Assembly (NCBI GenBank): GCA_937867625.1
Contig: CALMKR010000144.1
Coordinates: 1-33,058, forward strand
Reading direction: 5' to 3'
From: an uncultured bacterium
GTDB lineage: Bacteria; Patescibacteriota; Minisyncoccia; Phycocordibacterales; UBA918
Length of the DNA stretch: 33,058 nt
Position numbers and translations under genes: made by a program. The notes under the pieces are model-generated. The model saw only the letters and a program-made list of their open reading frames with translations. It searched no databases and was not told the origin of the DNA. How positions within the stretch are numbered: the stretch's first letter is position 1; each line of letters opens with the position of its first letter. Of the stretch, positions 9,441 through 15,007 are shown piece by piece.

Positions 9441-9839
9441 TTAGCTAATTAGCTTGTATTCGTGTTCACCGACTTGGATTTTCTTCGGTACAAAATCTTC
9501 TTGTTTCCACATAGGTCTGTCGTTGTAGTTATGGCGGTAAATTGCTAGTTCAATGAGGTTACAGGCTTCTTGAGAGGGAATAGCGAATCCGCTTCCTGCC
9601 ACCTCTCCGTCATCAGTCATCAAGCCCTTGTAGGTTCTGACTAGCCCTAGCTTCTTCATCGCTTGTATGAAGTCCTTGATGATTTCTGGGGTTACGTCAT
9701 CATCAGTATCTTGGTCAAGTGTTCGATAGTTATGACAATCTTCTGCCCGATAAGAAGAAAACAATGATTCCGCTATCTGAACAGTCTGCTCATTTAAGTG
9801 AGGAACAAAATGTATTAGTTTAACTTCTTCTTTGTTCAT
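9441..9839 (-). CDS. Hypothetical 132-aa protein
   Basis: Soluble and acidic. Residues about 50-72 (TPEIIKDFIQAMKKLGLVRT) read like the last helix and wing of a winged-helix domain, but the first helices are not convincing. It lies directly downstream (in transcription order) of structured RNA element 1. Function unknown. Confidence 0.66.
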   Translation of the reverse strand: MNKEEVKLIHFVPHLNEQTVQIAESLFSSYRAEDCHNYRTLDQDTDDDVTPEIIKDFIQAMKKLGLVRTYKGLMTDDGEVAGSGFAIPSQEACNLIELAIYRHNYNDRPMWKQEDFVPKKIQVGEHEYKLIS

Positions 9840-9882
9840 ATGCTTTCCTTCTTTCTTAATGTGTTATGTATTATCTGCTATA

Positions 9883-10025
9883 GCGTTAGGTAGTAAGTTG
9901 TAGGCGTGGCTTGTGATGACGCCTCGTTGGTCGAGGGTTACCGAATTGAACGGCAATCTTCCTAGCCATCTAGGGTGCTCTAACTTTGAGCTACCCCTCG
10001 CTAGTTCTCCCCTACTACCCAACGC
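9883..10025 (-). ncRNA. Structured RNA element 1, containing a tRNA-like domain with CCA
   Basis: A 143-base gene-free element closed by a 13-bp stem (9883-9895 with 10013-10025, one G-U on the minus strand but A-C on the plus strand, so minus is the RNA strand). Inside, 9928-10000 (minus) reads as a 73-base tRNA-like fold: acceptor CGAGGGG/ACCCTCG (six pairs), TA, D-stem GCTC/GAGC, T-stem TGCCG/CGGTA with T-loop TTCAATT, discriminator A and encoded CCA. The anticodon arm is abnormal: CCTAG/CTAGG capped by only ATGG, with no 7-base loop. A further hairpin AGGCGT...ACGCCT follows. It is unlikely to decode. Confidence 0.62.
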
Positions 10026-10043
10026 AATATAGATAATGTTAAG

Positions 10044-10202
10044 TTACTTCCAAAGTAGGTAGGCGAAAAAAACTAACACTACAGCAATGACTGGCTCAAT
10101 CCACAGATTATCGTCAAGATTACCCATTCTCCATATGAGACTGCCTAGTGTTACTAAGCCTAGAACACCTAAGATTGTTGTTATTACTATTTGTACTTCC
10201 AT
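10044..10202 (-). CDS. Small two-helix membrane protein (52 aa), holin-like
   Basis: Two membrane helices (residues about 4-24 and 36-52) joined by a short loop RMGNLDDNLWIE. An AAAGGAG site precedes ATG 10202. It lies in the same transcript as the membrane-anchored lytic transglycosylase, separated from it by structured RNAs, so a holin or lysis-timing role is possible. Size and hairpin topology are the only evidence. Confidence 0.62.
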   Translation of the reverse strand: MEVQIVITTILGVLGLVTLGSLIWRMGNLDDNLWIEPVIAVVLVFFAYLLWK

Positions 10203-10227
10203 CTTACTTTTCTCCTTTTATTAAGTT

Positions 10228-10379
10228 AGTTGTAGAGGGTGAAGGTGCGGCACTTCGGACTTCTTTCAAACTCATGGGTGCGACCCAATCGAAGCCGATG
10301 CCAGATAGAGTACCGCTAGGCAGAAAACCGTCGAGACATAAGAATCATCTGCGCTTTCTGCCCTTCACCACCTACAACT
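10228..10379 (-). ncRNA. Structured RNA element 3
   Basis: A 152-base element without a credible gene. The ends pair as AGTTGTAG/CTACAACT (8 bp) and, after a small internal loop, GGTGAAGG/CCTTCACC (8 bp). Inside, on the minus strand, GGCAGAAA/TTTCTGCC (8 bp) and GCGGTACT/AGTGCCGC (8 bp with one G-U that would be A-C on the plus strand) form two further arms, with a TGGGT/ACCCA hairpin within the second. The termini share ACAACT-type sequence with elements 1 and 2. Confidence 0.58.
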
Positions 10380-10395
10380 TGTATATATTGTTTCT

Positions 10396-10477
10396 ATTAA
10401 GCGCTTAACCCGACACGTTCCCCTAAAGGACAGAAGTTCTAGCCTCAAACTTCGCCGTGCCGCGTAAAACGCTTAAT
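10396..10477 (-). ncRNA. Structured RNA element 4 (82 nt)
   Basis: A tRNA-sized element closed by ATTAAGCG/CGCTTAAT (8 bp). On the minus strand the inner arms are GGCACG/CGTGTC (one G-U) and hairpin GAAGTT/AACTTC, with a further small TCC/GGA hairpin. It lacks a recognisable T-loop or CCA, so I do not call it a tRNA. Confidence 0.5.
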
Positions 10478-10480
10478 AAT

Positions 10481-10646
10481 GTTCAACTCTATGGTGAAAG
10501 TAGCAAGTTGTAGGCGTTACTACTGGACGCCTCGTTTATGAGCTATCTCTGATGGTCGGAGTCCGAAGACTTTATCCGCACGCAACAGCCCATCATCTGA
10601 CCCTTTGTAGCAGATGCTCTCTTGCTACCTTCATATAGAGTTGAAC
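10481..10646 (-). ncRNA. Structured RNA element 2
   Basis: A 166-base element closed by a 12-bp perfect stem (10481-10492 with 10635-10646), continued by a 5-bp and an 8-bp stem (GTAGCAAG/CTTGCTAC). On the minus strand it contains a CATCTG/CAGATG hairpin, a TGATGG/CCATCA arm enclosing a C(UUCG)G tetraloop hairpin (AGTC-TTCG-GACT), and the AGGCGT/ACGCCT hairpin also present in element 1. Segments such as AGAGCATCTGC..GGGTCAGATG look tRNA-derived, but no complete cloverleaf forms. Confidence 0.58.
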
Positions 10647-10663
10647 TATACTGAATTGTTAAG

Positions 10664-10972
10664 TTACTTGCATGCCCATTCGCCAGCATACCCGTTTGCA
10701 AAAGCCCATGCGGTAACTTCTGCTTGATGTACTGGGTTGTAAATGTCTCTTACGCCGTACGGTGATCTTCCGCCTATTCTGTTCCATGTCTCTGGTAGAT
10801 ATTGGAATAGTCCTGTTGGATTGCCGCCTCCTGCGTAATAGCCATAGTTTACAGCATTAGGGTTTAATGTGCTTTCACACCTCGCCACTCGTACAAGATA
10901 GTCCTCGCTGATACCATGCTTGCTTGCTGCGTCCCGTACTATCTGCTCTACATTTGTAGGCTGTGGCTGCAC
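10664..10972 (-). CDS. Lytic transglycosylase domain (distal part of a probable frameshift fusion)
   Basis: This encodes a small lysozyme-like/transglycosylase domain: VARCESTLNPNA with the catalytic Glu, GLFQYLPETWNRIGG, then a NPVHQAEVTAWAF helix and a final GEWACK. It resembles Rpf/SLT-type domains that cleave peptidoglycan. The nominal GTG start at 10972 has no ribosome site, and the frame stays open upstream to 11101, reading as a Pro/Glu/Thr linker that enters the 11056-11262 gene in the -1 frame. I infer a fusion product of about 199 residues with an N-terminal membrane anchor. See the 11017-11062 feature. Confidence 0.85.
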   Translation of the reverse strand: MQPQPTNVEQIVRDAASKHGISEDYLVRVARCESTLNPNAVNYGYYAGGGNPTGLFQYLPETWNRIGGRSPYGVRDIYNPVHQAEVTAWAFANGYAGEWACK

Positions 10973-11329: not shown

Positions 11330-11505
11330 TTTGTTTCCTTTGTTTATATTTACTTTATAGATCGTAGCTAAGGGGTTGCTCTCGCTATTGTTTCTATTCG
11401 TTGCGTTCCGAATGTTAGTGCTTGCCTTAGCTTGTGATCTATTCGGTCTAATCTTTCATTGATTGGACTATCTGAAGTATAGCACGACTGCTTATGTTTT
11501 GTCAA
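11330..11505 (-). promoter_or_regulatory. Early promoter P2 with shared spacer motif and decayed leader
   Basis: Minus-strand -35 TTGACA (11500-11505), 18-base spacer AAACATAAGCAGTCGTGC, -10 TATACT (11476-11481) with TGC extension. The -35 contains the TGA stop of the HNH gene. The leader copy at 11447-11461 retains CAATGAAAGATTAGA, but no start codon follows it. The first usable ATG is at 11329, giving a 5' leader of about 140 bases with no gene in it. Confidence 0.78.
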
Positions 11506-12878: not shown

Positions 12879-12970
12879 TATCGCTCCTCGCTAGGGTAAA
12901 TGTGGTAATCGACACCGTTTTGTGTGCCTAATGGGTATGTACTATAAATGCTGGTTACTGTAATTTTCAT
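12878..12970 (-). CDS. 30-aa leader peptide of early cassette 1
   Basis: The first frame after promoter P1. ATG 12970 follows the shared leader with AAAGGA. The peptide starts MKITVTSIYSTYPLGTQNGV and its TAA overlaps the ERF ATG. An in-frame ATG within the leader (ATGAAAGGATTAGATATG) would add five residues. Probably translated and coupled to erf. Confidence 0.55.
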   Translation of the reverse strand: MKITVTSIYSTYPLGTQNGVDYHIYPSEER

Positions 12971-13028
12971 ATCTAATCCTTTCATTGATTGATGTATCTA
13001 TTATACATGACTGCTTACGTTTTGTCTA
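12971..13028 (-). promoter_or_regulatory. Early promoter P1 with shared spacer motif and leader
   Basis: Minus-strand -35 TAGACA (13023-13028), 17-base spacer AAACGTAAGCAGTCATG, consensus -10 TATAAT (13000-13005). The spacer differs by two substitutions and one missing base from P2/P3. The leader CAATGAAAGGATTAGAT with ribosome site AAAGGA ends at ATG 12970. Divergent from the plus-strand small-RNA promoter at 13040. Confidence 0.8.
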
Positions 13029-13039
13029 GTACTTTACAA

Positions 13040-13068
13040 TTGAAGTTTTCCACTATATTTGGTATACT
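13040..13068 (+). promoter_or_regulatory. Promoter of small RNA unit D
   Basis: TTGAAG (13040-13045), 17-base spacer, TATACT (13063-13068). It faces away from P1, with only 11 bases between the two -35 boxes, so one regulator could control both. Confidence 0.62.
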
Positions 13069-13074
13069 GTTGCC

Positions 13075-13134
13075 AAACACCCTCGTTATATACCTCCACG
13101 TATATCTAGTCTTTCATTGGCGGGGGTGTTTTTC
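13075..13134 (+). ncRNA. Small RNA D, candidate antisense regulator of early leaders
   Basis: About 60 nt. The ends form an 11-bp stem AAACACCCTCG/CGGGGGTGTTT (13075-13085 with 13121-13131, one G-U) followed by a U run, so it also terminates itself. The loop holds an inner hairpin ATATAC/GTATAT whose loop is CUCCAC, then CUAGUCUUUCAUUGG. Positions 13102-13119 can pair without interruption (two G-U) with the ribosome site and start region of the cassette 3 leader (8360-8377), and nearly so with the other two. Alternatively the minus strand here is a further decayed copy of the leader. Confidence 0.6.
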
Positions 13135-13136
13135 TA

Positions 13137-13313
13137 TTGACCTTCTATCATGCTTGTGCTAACATGTAACCATTATCAGGATGCTACTTTAAGTAGACTA
13201 CCCTTCCAGATACGCACCTTTGGCGCAATACTCGCATTACGGCACACCCTCCGCTGTGATGCTACTCGACTAAACCCTCCGTTACTGCTCTACTGCAGCC
13301 AGGAGGGTTTTAC
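13137..13313 (+). ncRNA. Small RNA unit E with promoter and terminator
   Basis: Promoter TTGACC (13137-13142), 17 bases, TGC-TAACAT (13160-13165). The RNA would run from about 13172 to the terminator AAACCCTCC/GGAGGGTTT (9-bp stem, 13272-13280 with 13302-13310) plus TTTT. Inside lies a CACA/TGTG hairpin whose loop CCCUCCGC is also rich in CCUCC. No convincing gene is present: the plus-strand frame crossing it lacks a ribosome site and family. Confidence 0.55.
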
Positions 13314-13317
13314 TTAT

Positions 13318-13423
13318 GGTATAATTAAGTGTTACTTTCGAGTATAGCACCTGTTCGATCAACTCATGTTTTGTTGGTTGATCGCGCATTAGAAGTCCTA
13401 TGGGCTTCTTTTGTTTTATTTTG
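13318..13423 (+). ncRNA. Small RNA unit F with promoter and strong terminator
   Basis: Extended -10 TGG-TATAAT (13320-13325) directly follows unit E's terminator. The RNA has an 8-bp hairpin CGATCAAC/GTTGATCG (13356-13384) and ends at an 8-bp stem AGAAGTCC/GGGCTTCT with a 3-base loop and a long T run (13391-13423). No gene seen. Confidence 0.58.
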
Positions 13424-13472
13424 CTATATGTGGTGGTTGATTCATAACGCTTATGGGTGTATGATTGTAACA

Positions 13473-13504
13473 GTATTTAGCTTTCCTTGTCGGGGGTTAA
13501 ATAC
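13473..13504. repeat. Hairpin with repeated 14-base motif
   Basis: GTATTTA/TAAATAC forms a 7-bp stem (13473-13479 with 13498-13504). The loop contains TAGCTTTCCTTGTC (13478-13491), repeated exactly at 13542-13555. On the minus strand each copy reads GACAAGGAAAGCTA, which contains a Shine-Dalgarno-like AAGGA without a start codon. A weak -10 at 13425 could transcribe it on the plus strand, and the promoter at 13563 on the minus strand. Confidence 0.5.
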
Positions 13505-13562
13505 TAAAAGGTAATAGAAATACCCGCTCTTGCGAACGGGCTAGCTTTCCTTGTCTGTACTC

Positions 13563-13591
13563 AGTATAGCAAAGAATAATCTATTATGCAA
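13563..13591 (-). promoter_or_regulatory. Minus-strand promoter in the control region
   Basis: TTGCAT (13586-13591), 17 bases, TGC-TATACT (13563-13568). The transcript would carry both copies of the GACAAGGAAAGCTA motif and the hairpin. No gene start follows, so it would make a non-coding or attenuated RNA opposite units E-F. Confidence 0.5.
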
Positions 13592-13725
13592 GTGTTGGGG
13601 AGTCCCTGACTGTTGGCTTTAGGTGACACGTTAAATTGACCTATAAAACAGCTCAACGTTTTAGACTATCGTAAAGTCTGCATTGTACTGAATACACGCA
13701 CTTTAACATATGATATAGTTTGACT

Positions 13726-13824
13726 ATGACGAAACGAATTGTTCACATCACTACTTCTAATAATCCTATCGGTTACGACTGGGAATACGAAGAGTCTGAT
13801 GTACCTACATTTGTAAACTTGTAA
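13726..13824 (+). CDS. 32-aa plus-strand peptide, apparently leaderless
   Basis: ATG 13726 lies 6 bases after a -10 TATAGT (13714-13719), so transcription should start at the ATG itself. No ribosome site is possible. The product starts MTKRIVHITTSNNPIGYDWE, is acidic at the end and ends FVNL. The AT-rich upstream region lacks a good -35. Real expression is uncertain. Confidence 0.48.
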   Translation: MTKRIVHITTSNNPIGYDWEYEESDVPTFVNL

Positions 13825-13956
13825 TCAAAACCTATTCAGGGATTGCTTCAATACTTAACTCCCCCGCTATTTACAGTGAGGTTATGGGAGCGCTTAGAGT
13901 GCCGTGTAATAACCACAATATGCACACCAGTCTCAGAAGCCTATAATTAAAAGACT

Positions 13957-14118
13957 ATGAACGCCAATGAACTACTCACACCACTAATGTCCCTTGAAGA
14001 GAAGCTAGAGGCTATTGATAAAGCTATGGAGCTAGCTATGGCAAAACAGAGAATAGACTCGGGGGTTGAAGTGCCGATCGACCCAGCAGAACTTCTGTCT
14101 TGCTCGTCTTGCCAGTGA
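13957..14118 (+). CDS. 53-aa plus-strand protein with C-terminal Cys pair
   Basis: ATG 13957 follows TATAAT (13942-13947) by 9 bases, so its mRNA would have almost no leader. The protein is helical and acidic (LEEKLEAIDKAMELAMAKQR) and ends in SCSSCQ, a CxxC. The same GACTATGA context surrounds the start of the 32-aa gene. A minus-strand frame over the same bases looks like a shadow. Confidence 0.52.
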   Translation: MNANELLTPLMSLEEKLEAIDKAMELAMAKQRIDSGVEVPIDPAELLSCSSCQ

Positions 14119-14204
14119 GTGATATAATAAGCTAGCAACACTGACTAAGCTACCTTCCTGGTAAACAGGTCAAAAAGCAACCCTAGCTAAATACTAGGGT
14201 TTTT
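14119..14204 (+). ncRNA. Small RNA unit A
   Basis: Extended -10 TGA-TATAAT (14123-14128) starts just after the 53-aa stop. The RNA of about 70 nt has a CCTG/CAGG hairpin, then AAAAAGC and the terminator AACCCTAG/CTAGGGTT (14179-14186 with 14194-14201) with TTTTT. It is the first of three consecutive units of the same design. Confidence 0.6.
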
Positions 14205-14271
14205 GCTATAATGAAGTAGTTCTATCGAGGGAAACAAAACAGCACCCACCTTGAAATATAGGTGGGTGTTT
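14205..14271 (+). ncRNA. Small RNA unit B
   Basis: TGC-TATAAT (14207-14212) overlaps the T run of unit A's terminator. The RNA is about 50 nt, with GAGGGAAACAAAACAGC and then the terminator CACCCACCT/AGGTGGGTG (9 bp, 14243-14251 with 14260-14268), followed by a short T run. Confidence 0.58.
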
Positions 14272-14345
14272 GCTATAGTGGAATAGTCCGTCAAGACACA
14301 TTTCGGTAAGACACAAAGCAACCCACGCCTAGTACGTGGGTTTTT
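14272..14345 (+). ncRNA. Small RNA unit C
   Basis: TGC-TATAGT (14274-14279) again follows immediately on the preceding terminator. The RNA is about 60 nt, with AAGACACATTTCGGTAAGAC, then AAAGC and the terminator AACCCACG/CGTGGGTT (14320-14327 with 14335-14342) with TTTTT. Confidence 0.6.
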
Positions 14346-14400
14346 GCTTTACTTGCCGCTCCTGTGTCTAAATATTACACACGAACATTGTGGGACGTTT

Positions 14401-14430
14401 GGATTATACCACTAAAACTACGGCTCAAGT
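14401..14430 (-). repeat. Left copy of outward promoter repeat
   Basis: On the minus strand this reads ACTTGAGCCGTAG, 9 bases, TATAAT (-10 at 14403-14408), transcribing leftward towards unit C. It is an inverted copy of 14706-14735. The 13-base block is identical and the TATAAT block too. Only a six-residue frame follows, so its product is probably non-coding. Confidence 0.65.
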
Positions 14431-14705
14431 GATTATATTACTTAATTATCTGTGTTGATTCTACTTTGGTTACGTGTGTACAAGTCTCGACCGACCCTAG
14501 TGGTGAAAAGTATATTAGAACAATTGACGAAGAAGCTTAGCTAATTAAGTTTATTGTTTTCTATGCAAATATGGTAGATATTCTATTTTCCCTTATTTCG
14601 CTTAAGGCTTCCCTTAATCAATAAATAACAGAGGTAGATTTAGCCAGAATTGACTTCCCTTATTTATCTCCATTTTTCCTAAACCTAAACTTCTTTCTAA
14701 ACTAA
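14431..14705. other. AT-rich core between promoter repeats, possible replication origin
   Basis: About 275 bases with no credible gene. It is AT-rich and contains three TTCCCTTA copies (near 14590, 14609 and 14656) and repeated CTAAAC units near 14690. Iterons plus an AT-rich tract flanked by inverted repeats are how many phage and plasmid origins look, but no initiator gene is present to support this. A 22-24-residue plus-strand frame near 14470-14540 lacks a good start. Confidence 0.35.
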
Positions 14706-14735
14706 ACTTGAGCCGTAGATGTAAAGGTATAATGG
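14706..14735 (+). repeat. Right copy of outward promoter repeat
   Basis: ACTTGAGCCGTAG (14706-14718), 9 bases, TATAAT (14728-14733), transcribing rightward. Partner of 14401-14430. Just downstream an inverted pair GGGGCG/CGCCCC (14734-14739 with 14769-14774) could fold. No plus-strand gene follows, so this may be antisense to cassette 17187-14848. Confidence 0.62.
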
Positions 14736-14784
14736 GGCGGTCTTTAGGTATCTCTCCGTTCAGGTGGTCGCCCCGTACACGTTT

Positions 14785-14851
14785 ATTATAGCAGAACTAA
14801 AGGCTTTTTGTAGTAAACTCTGTCATAGTATCTGCATTATAACAGAACTAA
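14785..14851 (-). promoter_or_regulatory. Tandem direct repeat with two minus-strand -10 boxes
   Basis: ATTATA(G/A)CAGAACTAA occurs at 14785-14800 and 14836-14851. On the minus strand each is TTAGTTCTG(C/T)TATAAT, an extended -10 (CTGC or CTGT before TATAAT). The right copy overlaps the stop of the 33-aa gene. They could restart transcription towards the control region. Confidence 0.5.
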
Positions 14852-14949
14852 TACAGCTGGTCACTAGACAATATAAGCAACGTTAGAGTACAGATAACAA
14901 AGACTATGCCAATCCATGCCAGTACAATCTTGAGTACGTCATTGTCCAT
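14848..14949 (-). CDS. 33-aa single-pass membrane peptide
   Basis: ATG 14949 is followed by MDNDV and one hydrophobic helix (VLAWIGIVFVICTLTLLIL), then SSDQLY. It is the last gene of the 17187 cassette. Plausible but unsupported beyond its helix and position. Confidence 0.5.
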   Translation of the reverse strand: MDNDVLKIVLAWIGIVFVICTLTLLILSSDQLY

Positions 14950-15007
14950 CAGCAAACTCTATCTCGCCCTGCTGTTCTAGGGACTGTTCAGTGTGATTGT
15001 GTTCCAC
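14939..15007 (-). CDS. 22-aa acidic peptide (tentative)
   Basis: GTG 15007 inside the end of the phosphoesterase gene, with AGGA 7 bases before it, encodes MEHNHTEQSLEQQGEIEFAD and two more residues. It overlaps the next start by 11 bases. It fits the packed gene style, but a peptide this small could be chance. Confidence 0.3.
   Translation of the reverse strand: MEHNHTEQSLEQQGEIEFADGQ

Follow-up and report, generated by a model that had tools for sequence, protein, structure and literature searches.

Why phages produce tRNAs that cannot decode is the question raised by a 73-nt segment on the minus strand of a contig from an uncultured bacterium. The stretch of DNA analysed, henceforth referred to as the window, is 33,058 nucleotides long and is a phage contig encoding terminase subunits, M23 and SLT lysins, ERF and HNH. 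The contig sits in a metagenome-assembled genome (MAG) of 1.68 Mb, near-complete relatives of which measure 0.6–1 Mb. Distant terminase-like matches on contigs C218, C291 and C301 of the same MAG (referred to as G000) hint that more phage contigs were binned there.

A tRNA-like domain within a closed RNA

Four structured RNAs lie close together on the minus strand in the order A, A2, B and, after a 52-aa ORF, C; the coordinates of these RNAs, their parts and the neighbouring ORFs are all given for that strand. RNA A2 (10395–10478; z = −5.0; inverted repeat I1) is a short structured RNA between A and B, and RNA B (10228–10379; z = −5.1; inverted repeat I2) is a structured closed RNA. Both are devoid of the core hairpin described below, and neither gave an Rfam match. 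An SLT (lytic transglycosylase) ORF (10664–10972; Pfam PF01464) is located upstream of RNA A. The 52-aa ORF (10044–10202, from the ORF list), directly upstream of RNA C, is hydrophobic and possibly holin-like, and had no PHROG match. A 132-aa ORF (9441–9839) starts ~39 nt after RNA C; it was assigned to no family and a search for its relatives gave none. Elsewhere in the window, the ~2 kb at 12880–15000 are poor in ORFs and rich in hairpins, several of which, near-perfect and GC-rich, lie at 14190–14350 and could be terminators. The recurring sequence CAATGAAAG-TAGA ahead of genes at 11445–11465, 12970–12990 and 13100–13125 is a possible phage regulatory sequence.

RNA C extends over about 9878–10032 and is closed by a stem of 15–20 bp, P1, with its 5′ arm at 10011–10032 and its 3′ arm at 9878–9897. 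The folding energy of −61 kcal/mol for 9870–10032 corresponds to z = −4.9, and 0 of 200 shuffles were as stable. This result bears out the suggestion, made in an earlier note on this DNA, that a tRNA-like segment is embedded here in a larger closed RNA. The segment itself was confirmed at exactly 9928–10000 by its sequence, by its fold in isolation and by covariation among five loci. Read from 10000 to 9928, it is CGAGGGG-TA-GCTC-AAAGTTA-GAGC-AC-CCTAG-ATGG-CTAGG-AAGAT-TGCCG-TTCAATT-CGGTA-ACCCTCG-A-CCA. The acceptor (10000–9994 with 9938–9932) has a G-A mismatch at position 7, leaving six good pairs, and is accompanied by a D arm (9991–9977), a T arm (9955–9939) with the loop TTCAATT, discriminator A (9931) and CCA (9930–9928), as the earlier note had described. 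The third arm (9974–9961) is likewise a 5-bp stem with a 4-base loop, ATGG.

The acceptor, D and T arms with discriminator and CCA of a functional tRNA are present in RNA C, and the 7-nt anticodon loop on a 5-bp stem is replaced by the 4-nt ATGG loop. Because the anticodon arm is reduced in this way, RNA C cannot read codons. A role as decoy for an anticodon nuclease, one of those previously suggested, is unlikely since the anticodon loop is absent. Charging of RNA C would need a cut 3′ of the CCA, which directly adjoins the invariant hairpin.

When folded alone, the 73-mer adopted the cloverleaf as its minimum-energy structure (−27.2 kcal/mol); in whole RNA C, a competing fold was better than the cloverleaf by only 1.1 kcal/mol. 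ARAGORN, which had been proposed as a check, called no tRNA and no tmRNA in the window, and neither ARAGORN nor Rfam RF00005 recognized RNA C as a tRNA. Rfam returned no family in the window at gathering scores and no relevant family at E up to 10 over 9800–10750. A loose scan for T-arm, acceptor, D-arm and CCA produced 0.185 matches per shuffled window, and a score as high as that of the RNA C domain was reached in 2 of 200 shuffled windows (~1%). By single-sequence statistics, chance occurrence of the domain is only moderately rare, and this evidence is weak on its own.

Just 3′ of the CCA lies the core hairpin P3 (9897–9927), AC-GAGGCGT-CATCACAAGCC-ACGCCT-ACAAC, which is common to RNA A and many viral loci. 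The hairpin AAC-GAGGCGT...ACGCCT-ACAAC within a P1 stem defines the core-hairpin family and is present in RNA C. RNA A (10481–10646; z = −6.1) is a second closed RNA with the core hairpin (10507–10533), identified by a shared repeat, a pattern match and a covariance model score of 20.3 bits. The 3′ part ACGAGGCGTC...ACGCCTACAACTTRCTAC and the flank preceding the RNA are common to RNAs A and C, whose bodies differ, that of RNA A being non-tRNA. By eye, the RNA A body stretch AAAGGGTCAGATG..GCTG.TGTTGCG resembles L060, L159 and L160, which suggests a second body class.

Conservation of the non-decoding fold

The same arrangement, a tRNA-like domain at the P2 position inside P1, was found in loci L035, L036, L157 and L158, which together with RNA C are the only five known members of the C type. 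L035, L036 and L157 were obtained from patterns lacking the CCA and L158 from a pattern including it. In 5/5 members the domain ends in A-CCA just before AAC-P3. The third arm always has 5–6 bp and a small G-rich loop of NNGG type (ATGG, AGGG, TGGGGT, ACGG and ATGGG). The T-loops are TTCAATT, TTCGACT, TTCAACT, TTAGAGT and TTAAATT, position 56 being A, not C, in L157 and L158. Pairing between the CCAT of the P3 loop and the small-arm ATGG would be possible in L036 and L158, though not in L157. SLT-like ORFs were also seen near the C-type RNA in L036, L158 and L035 (ORF lists, by eye).

Across the five members, 95.5% of pair cells hold, with double-sided changes in 14 pairs (0/500 shuffles), compared to 36–43% in slid controls. 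The small third arm pairs in 25/25 of its own combinations versus at most 15 with swapped arms, and the T arm in 24/25 versus at most 16. For P1, with RNA A included, own-arm pairing is 9–11 of 11 versus 1–8 for swapped arms; its sequence is variable and its pairing conserved. The pairing and double-sided changes of the C type indicate that the non-decoding fold has been selected and is not due to decay or chance.

Phages do carry tRNAs, and at 73 nt the domain is three short of a standard 76-nt tRNA, as would be expected of a decaying phage tRNA gene minus three anticodon-loop bases. That explanation is contradicted by the covariation and is very improbable: covariation of the third arm is perfect over the five loci, its loop is small and of NNGG type, and each copy of the domain lies between P1 and P3. 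A fortuitous tRNA shape in structured intergenic phage DNA could draw on the rate at which loose CCA-bearing shapes arise in shuffled windows, but is contradicted by conservation, covariation and the shared core hairpin. Its probability is negligible, conservation in relatives being what excludes chance for the RNA C domain.

A covariance model built solely from the five C-type members scored 99.9 bits against 9897–10000, a value obtained by construction since RNA C is one of the five. Applied to 397 genomes of the order, it detected no other C-type member and no other match approaching 100 bits. Matches of 45–56 bits occurred in 280/397 genomes and, in annotated loci, coincided with ordinary tRNAs; the C-type fold is therefore a tRNA fold. 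The distant locus L067 scored 54 bits including the core and retains the cloverleaf and an ACGG loop.

The view that the domain is unable to decode is supported by the homologues, which keep the cloverleaf, the arm with the small NNGG-type loop and the CCA. Retention of both T-loop and CCA, on which the earlier note had staked its reading, held only in part. The CCA is kept in 5/5 C-type members, four of which were found without CCA in the requirement; the T-loop is canonical in three and TTA-type in two, and L067 is without both. Judged from these sequences, the scaffold appears more conserved than the chargeable end.

Two further explanations concern the position of the RNA. The genes on either side of RNA C are on the same strand, a ribosome-binding site follows shortly after the RNA, and nothing resembling a terminator was seen nearby. 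RNA C could be a processing signal, an RNase P (and 3′-end) cleavage site maturing or separating neighbouring operon transcripts. That tRNA-like structures are RNase P substrates counts in its favour. A plain tRNA would suffice for this purpose, however, making the conserved reduced arm, the closed P1 and the invariant P3 superfluous. The close succession of CCA and P3 throughout the C type also argues against it, as do the other tRNAs right before the C-type RNA of L158, which could serve instead; we consider a processing signal unlikely. Alternatively, RNA C may be a cis-regulatory mRNA leader that senses a tRNA-related signal and controls the next gene, given that an ORF with a good ribosome-binding site follows within tens of bases in the window, L035, L036 and L158. 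This is quite unlikely: by inspection the downstream proteins are mutually unrelated, in L157 no ORF immediately follows the RNA, and several related elements are followed by their own promoter-like sequence, not by a ribosome-binding site.

Architecture and distribution of the core-hairpin family

Relatives of the common type are arranged in the order tRNA-like body, N-GC, P1, GTAG, P2, GAACAAC, P3, ACAAC, short hairpin P4, GAGAG and P1′, where P2 is a short hairpin of changing sequence, often GAAA-capped. The core usually adjoins a tRNA or tRNA-like body, and in most matches it is closely preceded by a canonical T-arm and acceptor strand. Several matches lie within tRNA arrays, tRNA neighbours being present in L158, L026 and L063, and Rfam identified the outer body of several relatives as tRNA (RF00005) and found no other family. 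In L158 (9640–9833, minus strand), a tRNA-Pro, a ~109-nt tRNA-like sequence with an enlarged anticodon region and the C-type RNA are immediately successive. A third arrangement is seen in L159 (around 1975–2237) and L160 (184–268), where the core hairpin apparently forms part of the insert on the anticodon side of a tRNA-Ser/Leu-like gene.

Most common-type bodies have canonical acceptor, D and T arms and an insert of 50–160 nt in place of the anticodon arm; L092 and L026 retain a normal anticodon loop. An intron reading was rejected, since the Rfam matches in type I loci included no intron family. Of 41 distinct anticodon-region inserts, 22 had hairpin loops with 6-nt palindromes, versus a mean of 5.7 and a maximum of 12 for shuffled loops. 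In type I loci L024, L046, L064, L072, L108, L149 and others, one loop palindrome takes the place of another (ACTAGT/TCTAGA/ACATGT; TGATCA/TAGCTA), as would be predicted for homotypic kissing loops.

The palindromic loops bear on the main rival explanation, an RNA-only or RNA-rich assembly of homo-oligomers like ROOL or GOLLD, in which the tRNA-like part would be a building block and the arms replacing the anticodon would be contacts. Their excess and mutual exchange are only suggestive of this, and some lie in long perfect palindromes, where a hairpin would expose them in any case. ROOL and GOLLD provide a precedent, being cage-forming RNAs of phages located near tRNA islands (PMC12286853). 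RNA C itself, however, has no palindromic loop, is ~155 nt long and thus far below the size of GOLLD, and does not match the Rfam models of ROOL and GOLLD. An assembly is considered somewhat unlikely.

The IMG/VR pattern for the shared hairpin, GAGGCGT-N5-20-ACGCCTACAAC, matched at least 120 stretches of viral contigs; among the matches listed, some are coding chance matches and most have further conserved context. A slightly stricter pattern matched 9 stretches in 257 Gb of prokaryote genomes, on MAG contigs. One of these contigs is 51,399 bases long, carries the element at either end and matches an equally long IMG/VR contig. By this comparison, made with slightly different patterns, the core-hairpin family shows near restriction to viral contigs. 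Since the IMG/VR patterns were exact, the family must be larger and its diversity is underestimated. When the hairpin middle was dropped from the pattern, the true members found still read GAGGCGT...ACGCCT, demonstrating that P3 is conserved as sequence; as P3 never varies, its pairing gains no support from comparison.

Among 50,697 phage records, the one convincing core match was to an unannotated stretch of Tetrasphaera phage TJE1, which was also the only convincing core in a BLAST search of the relatives against phages. BLAST of the window RNA region against phages gave no match, and plasmids had no core-hairpin match. A match in Arthrobacter phage Waltz was rejected because it lies inside a coding gene, and L161–L166, from a CCA-plus-hairpin pattern, were rejected as coding chance matches. 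In TJE1 (L147 2800–3060; HQ225832 about 37590–37850), the core, at HQ225832 37776–37835, follows a long unannotated, structured-looking region, providing a culturable entry point.

Carriers are viruses or contigs assigned to very different hosts, namely Patescibacteria, an actinobacterium, Rickettsiales, Halobacteriovorax, Omnitrophota and a euryarchaeal MAG, the assignments by MAG title being uncertain. No protein family was common to all carriers compared, and a shared gene neighbour was seen only within one group of related phages. The core hairpin was missing from the parts examined of terminase relatives L005 and L016 and is therefore accessory. It matched no Rfam family, and no description of the family was found in the literature, where thin coverage of subscription journals makes an earlier description possible. 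We are highly confident that the core-hairpin RNA family exists.

Proposed role and relation to known RNA systems

It is slightly more likely than not that many uncultivated viruses share a P1-P2-P3 core with an invariant GAGGCGT hairpin that carries tRNAs or decoding-stripped tRNA-like domains, the anticodon arms of the latter being reduced, enlarged or self-complementary. This core would be a virus-specific RNA device, unrelated to any described RNA family, with which the tRNA machinery of the host is engaged or RNA assemblies are built. For RNA C, we put at about an even chance the reading that it is a phage tRNA mimic displayed on the common RNA core and a member of this undescribed viral family.

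The mechanism proposed for RNA C is tentative. The constant part of the family would be a junction formed by the long P1, a cassette position at P2 and the invariant P3 hairpin. In RNA C the cassette is predicted to be an L-shaped tRNA mimic, with acceptor, D and T arms and A-CCA, in which only a short stem and an NNGG-type loop are left of the anticodon arm. An invariant hairpin combined with a variable body suggests a constant partner and a variable effector, and P3 with the junction may dock one common partner, either a protein or the ribosome. The tRNA-like body may engage the elbow/acceptor recognition of a tRNA-handling factor, candidates being RNase P, PNPase-type nuclease complexes, EF-Tu and CCA or modification enzymes. 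A factor reading the elbow/acceptor half is the most likely target because the effector consists of those parts without decoding. During infection, RNA C would act as a tether or competitor, not as an adaptor.

The common invariant hairpin implies a common partner, which would make the question of why phages produce non-decoding tRNAs directly testable, for instance in TJE1, the sole isolate found with the core.

The nearest working model is YrlA, in which a stem tether is combined with a tRNA-like effector. In YrlA, a bacterial Y RNA, the two ends form a long stem, and an internal tRNA-like domain mimics the D, T and acceptor arms (PMC8394870). RNA C has a similar size, an end stem and a tRNA-like domain, but also contains the invariant GAGGCGT hairpin and encodes a CCA. 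Binding of Rsr (Ro60) and PNPase is a further trait of Y RNAs. Identity as a Y RNA was rejected on the features tested: no Y RNA family was among the Rfam matches with E up to 10 over 9800–10750, and a Ro60/TROVE gene was absent from the genome of the window and from 23/24 other carrier records, many of them fragments. Of the carriers tested, only the L101 virus record (458,813 bases; 459 kb) combined the core RNA with a TROVE-domain (Ro60-like) gene.

Like tmRNA, RNA C places a tRNA-like acceptor and T arm in a larger non-decoding RNA; unlike tmRNA, it has an internal CCA, a true D arm and a small third arm, and neither ARAGORN nor Rfam called a tmRNA with a tag reading frame in the window. 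In GOLLD the 3′ region is conserved and the 5′ region variable, and both ROOL and GOLLD are RNAs of ornate fold near tRNA arrays (PMC12286853). The core-hairpin family likewise comprises phage RNAs of ornate fold, several of them in tRNA arrays, whereas RNA C is much smaller, has a different conserved core and did not match the Rfam family models of ROOL, GOLLD or OLE. Ordinary phage tRNAs have the same acceptor, D and T arms but differ from RNA C, which lacks an anticodon loop and is fused to P1 and P3. Plant RNA viruses, too, encode tRNA mimics able to end in CCA, and these tRNA-like structures are located at the 3′ terminus of the RNA genome. The CCA of RNA C, in contrast, is internal, not at the RNA 3′ end, and its virus is a dsDNA phage. 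Stem-borne tRNA mimics are already known in Y RNAs and tmRNA; here, they are seen in a family from dsDNA phages in which exchangeable tRNA-like bodies are plugged into a single invariant core.
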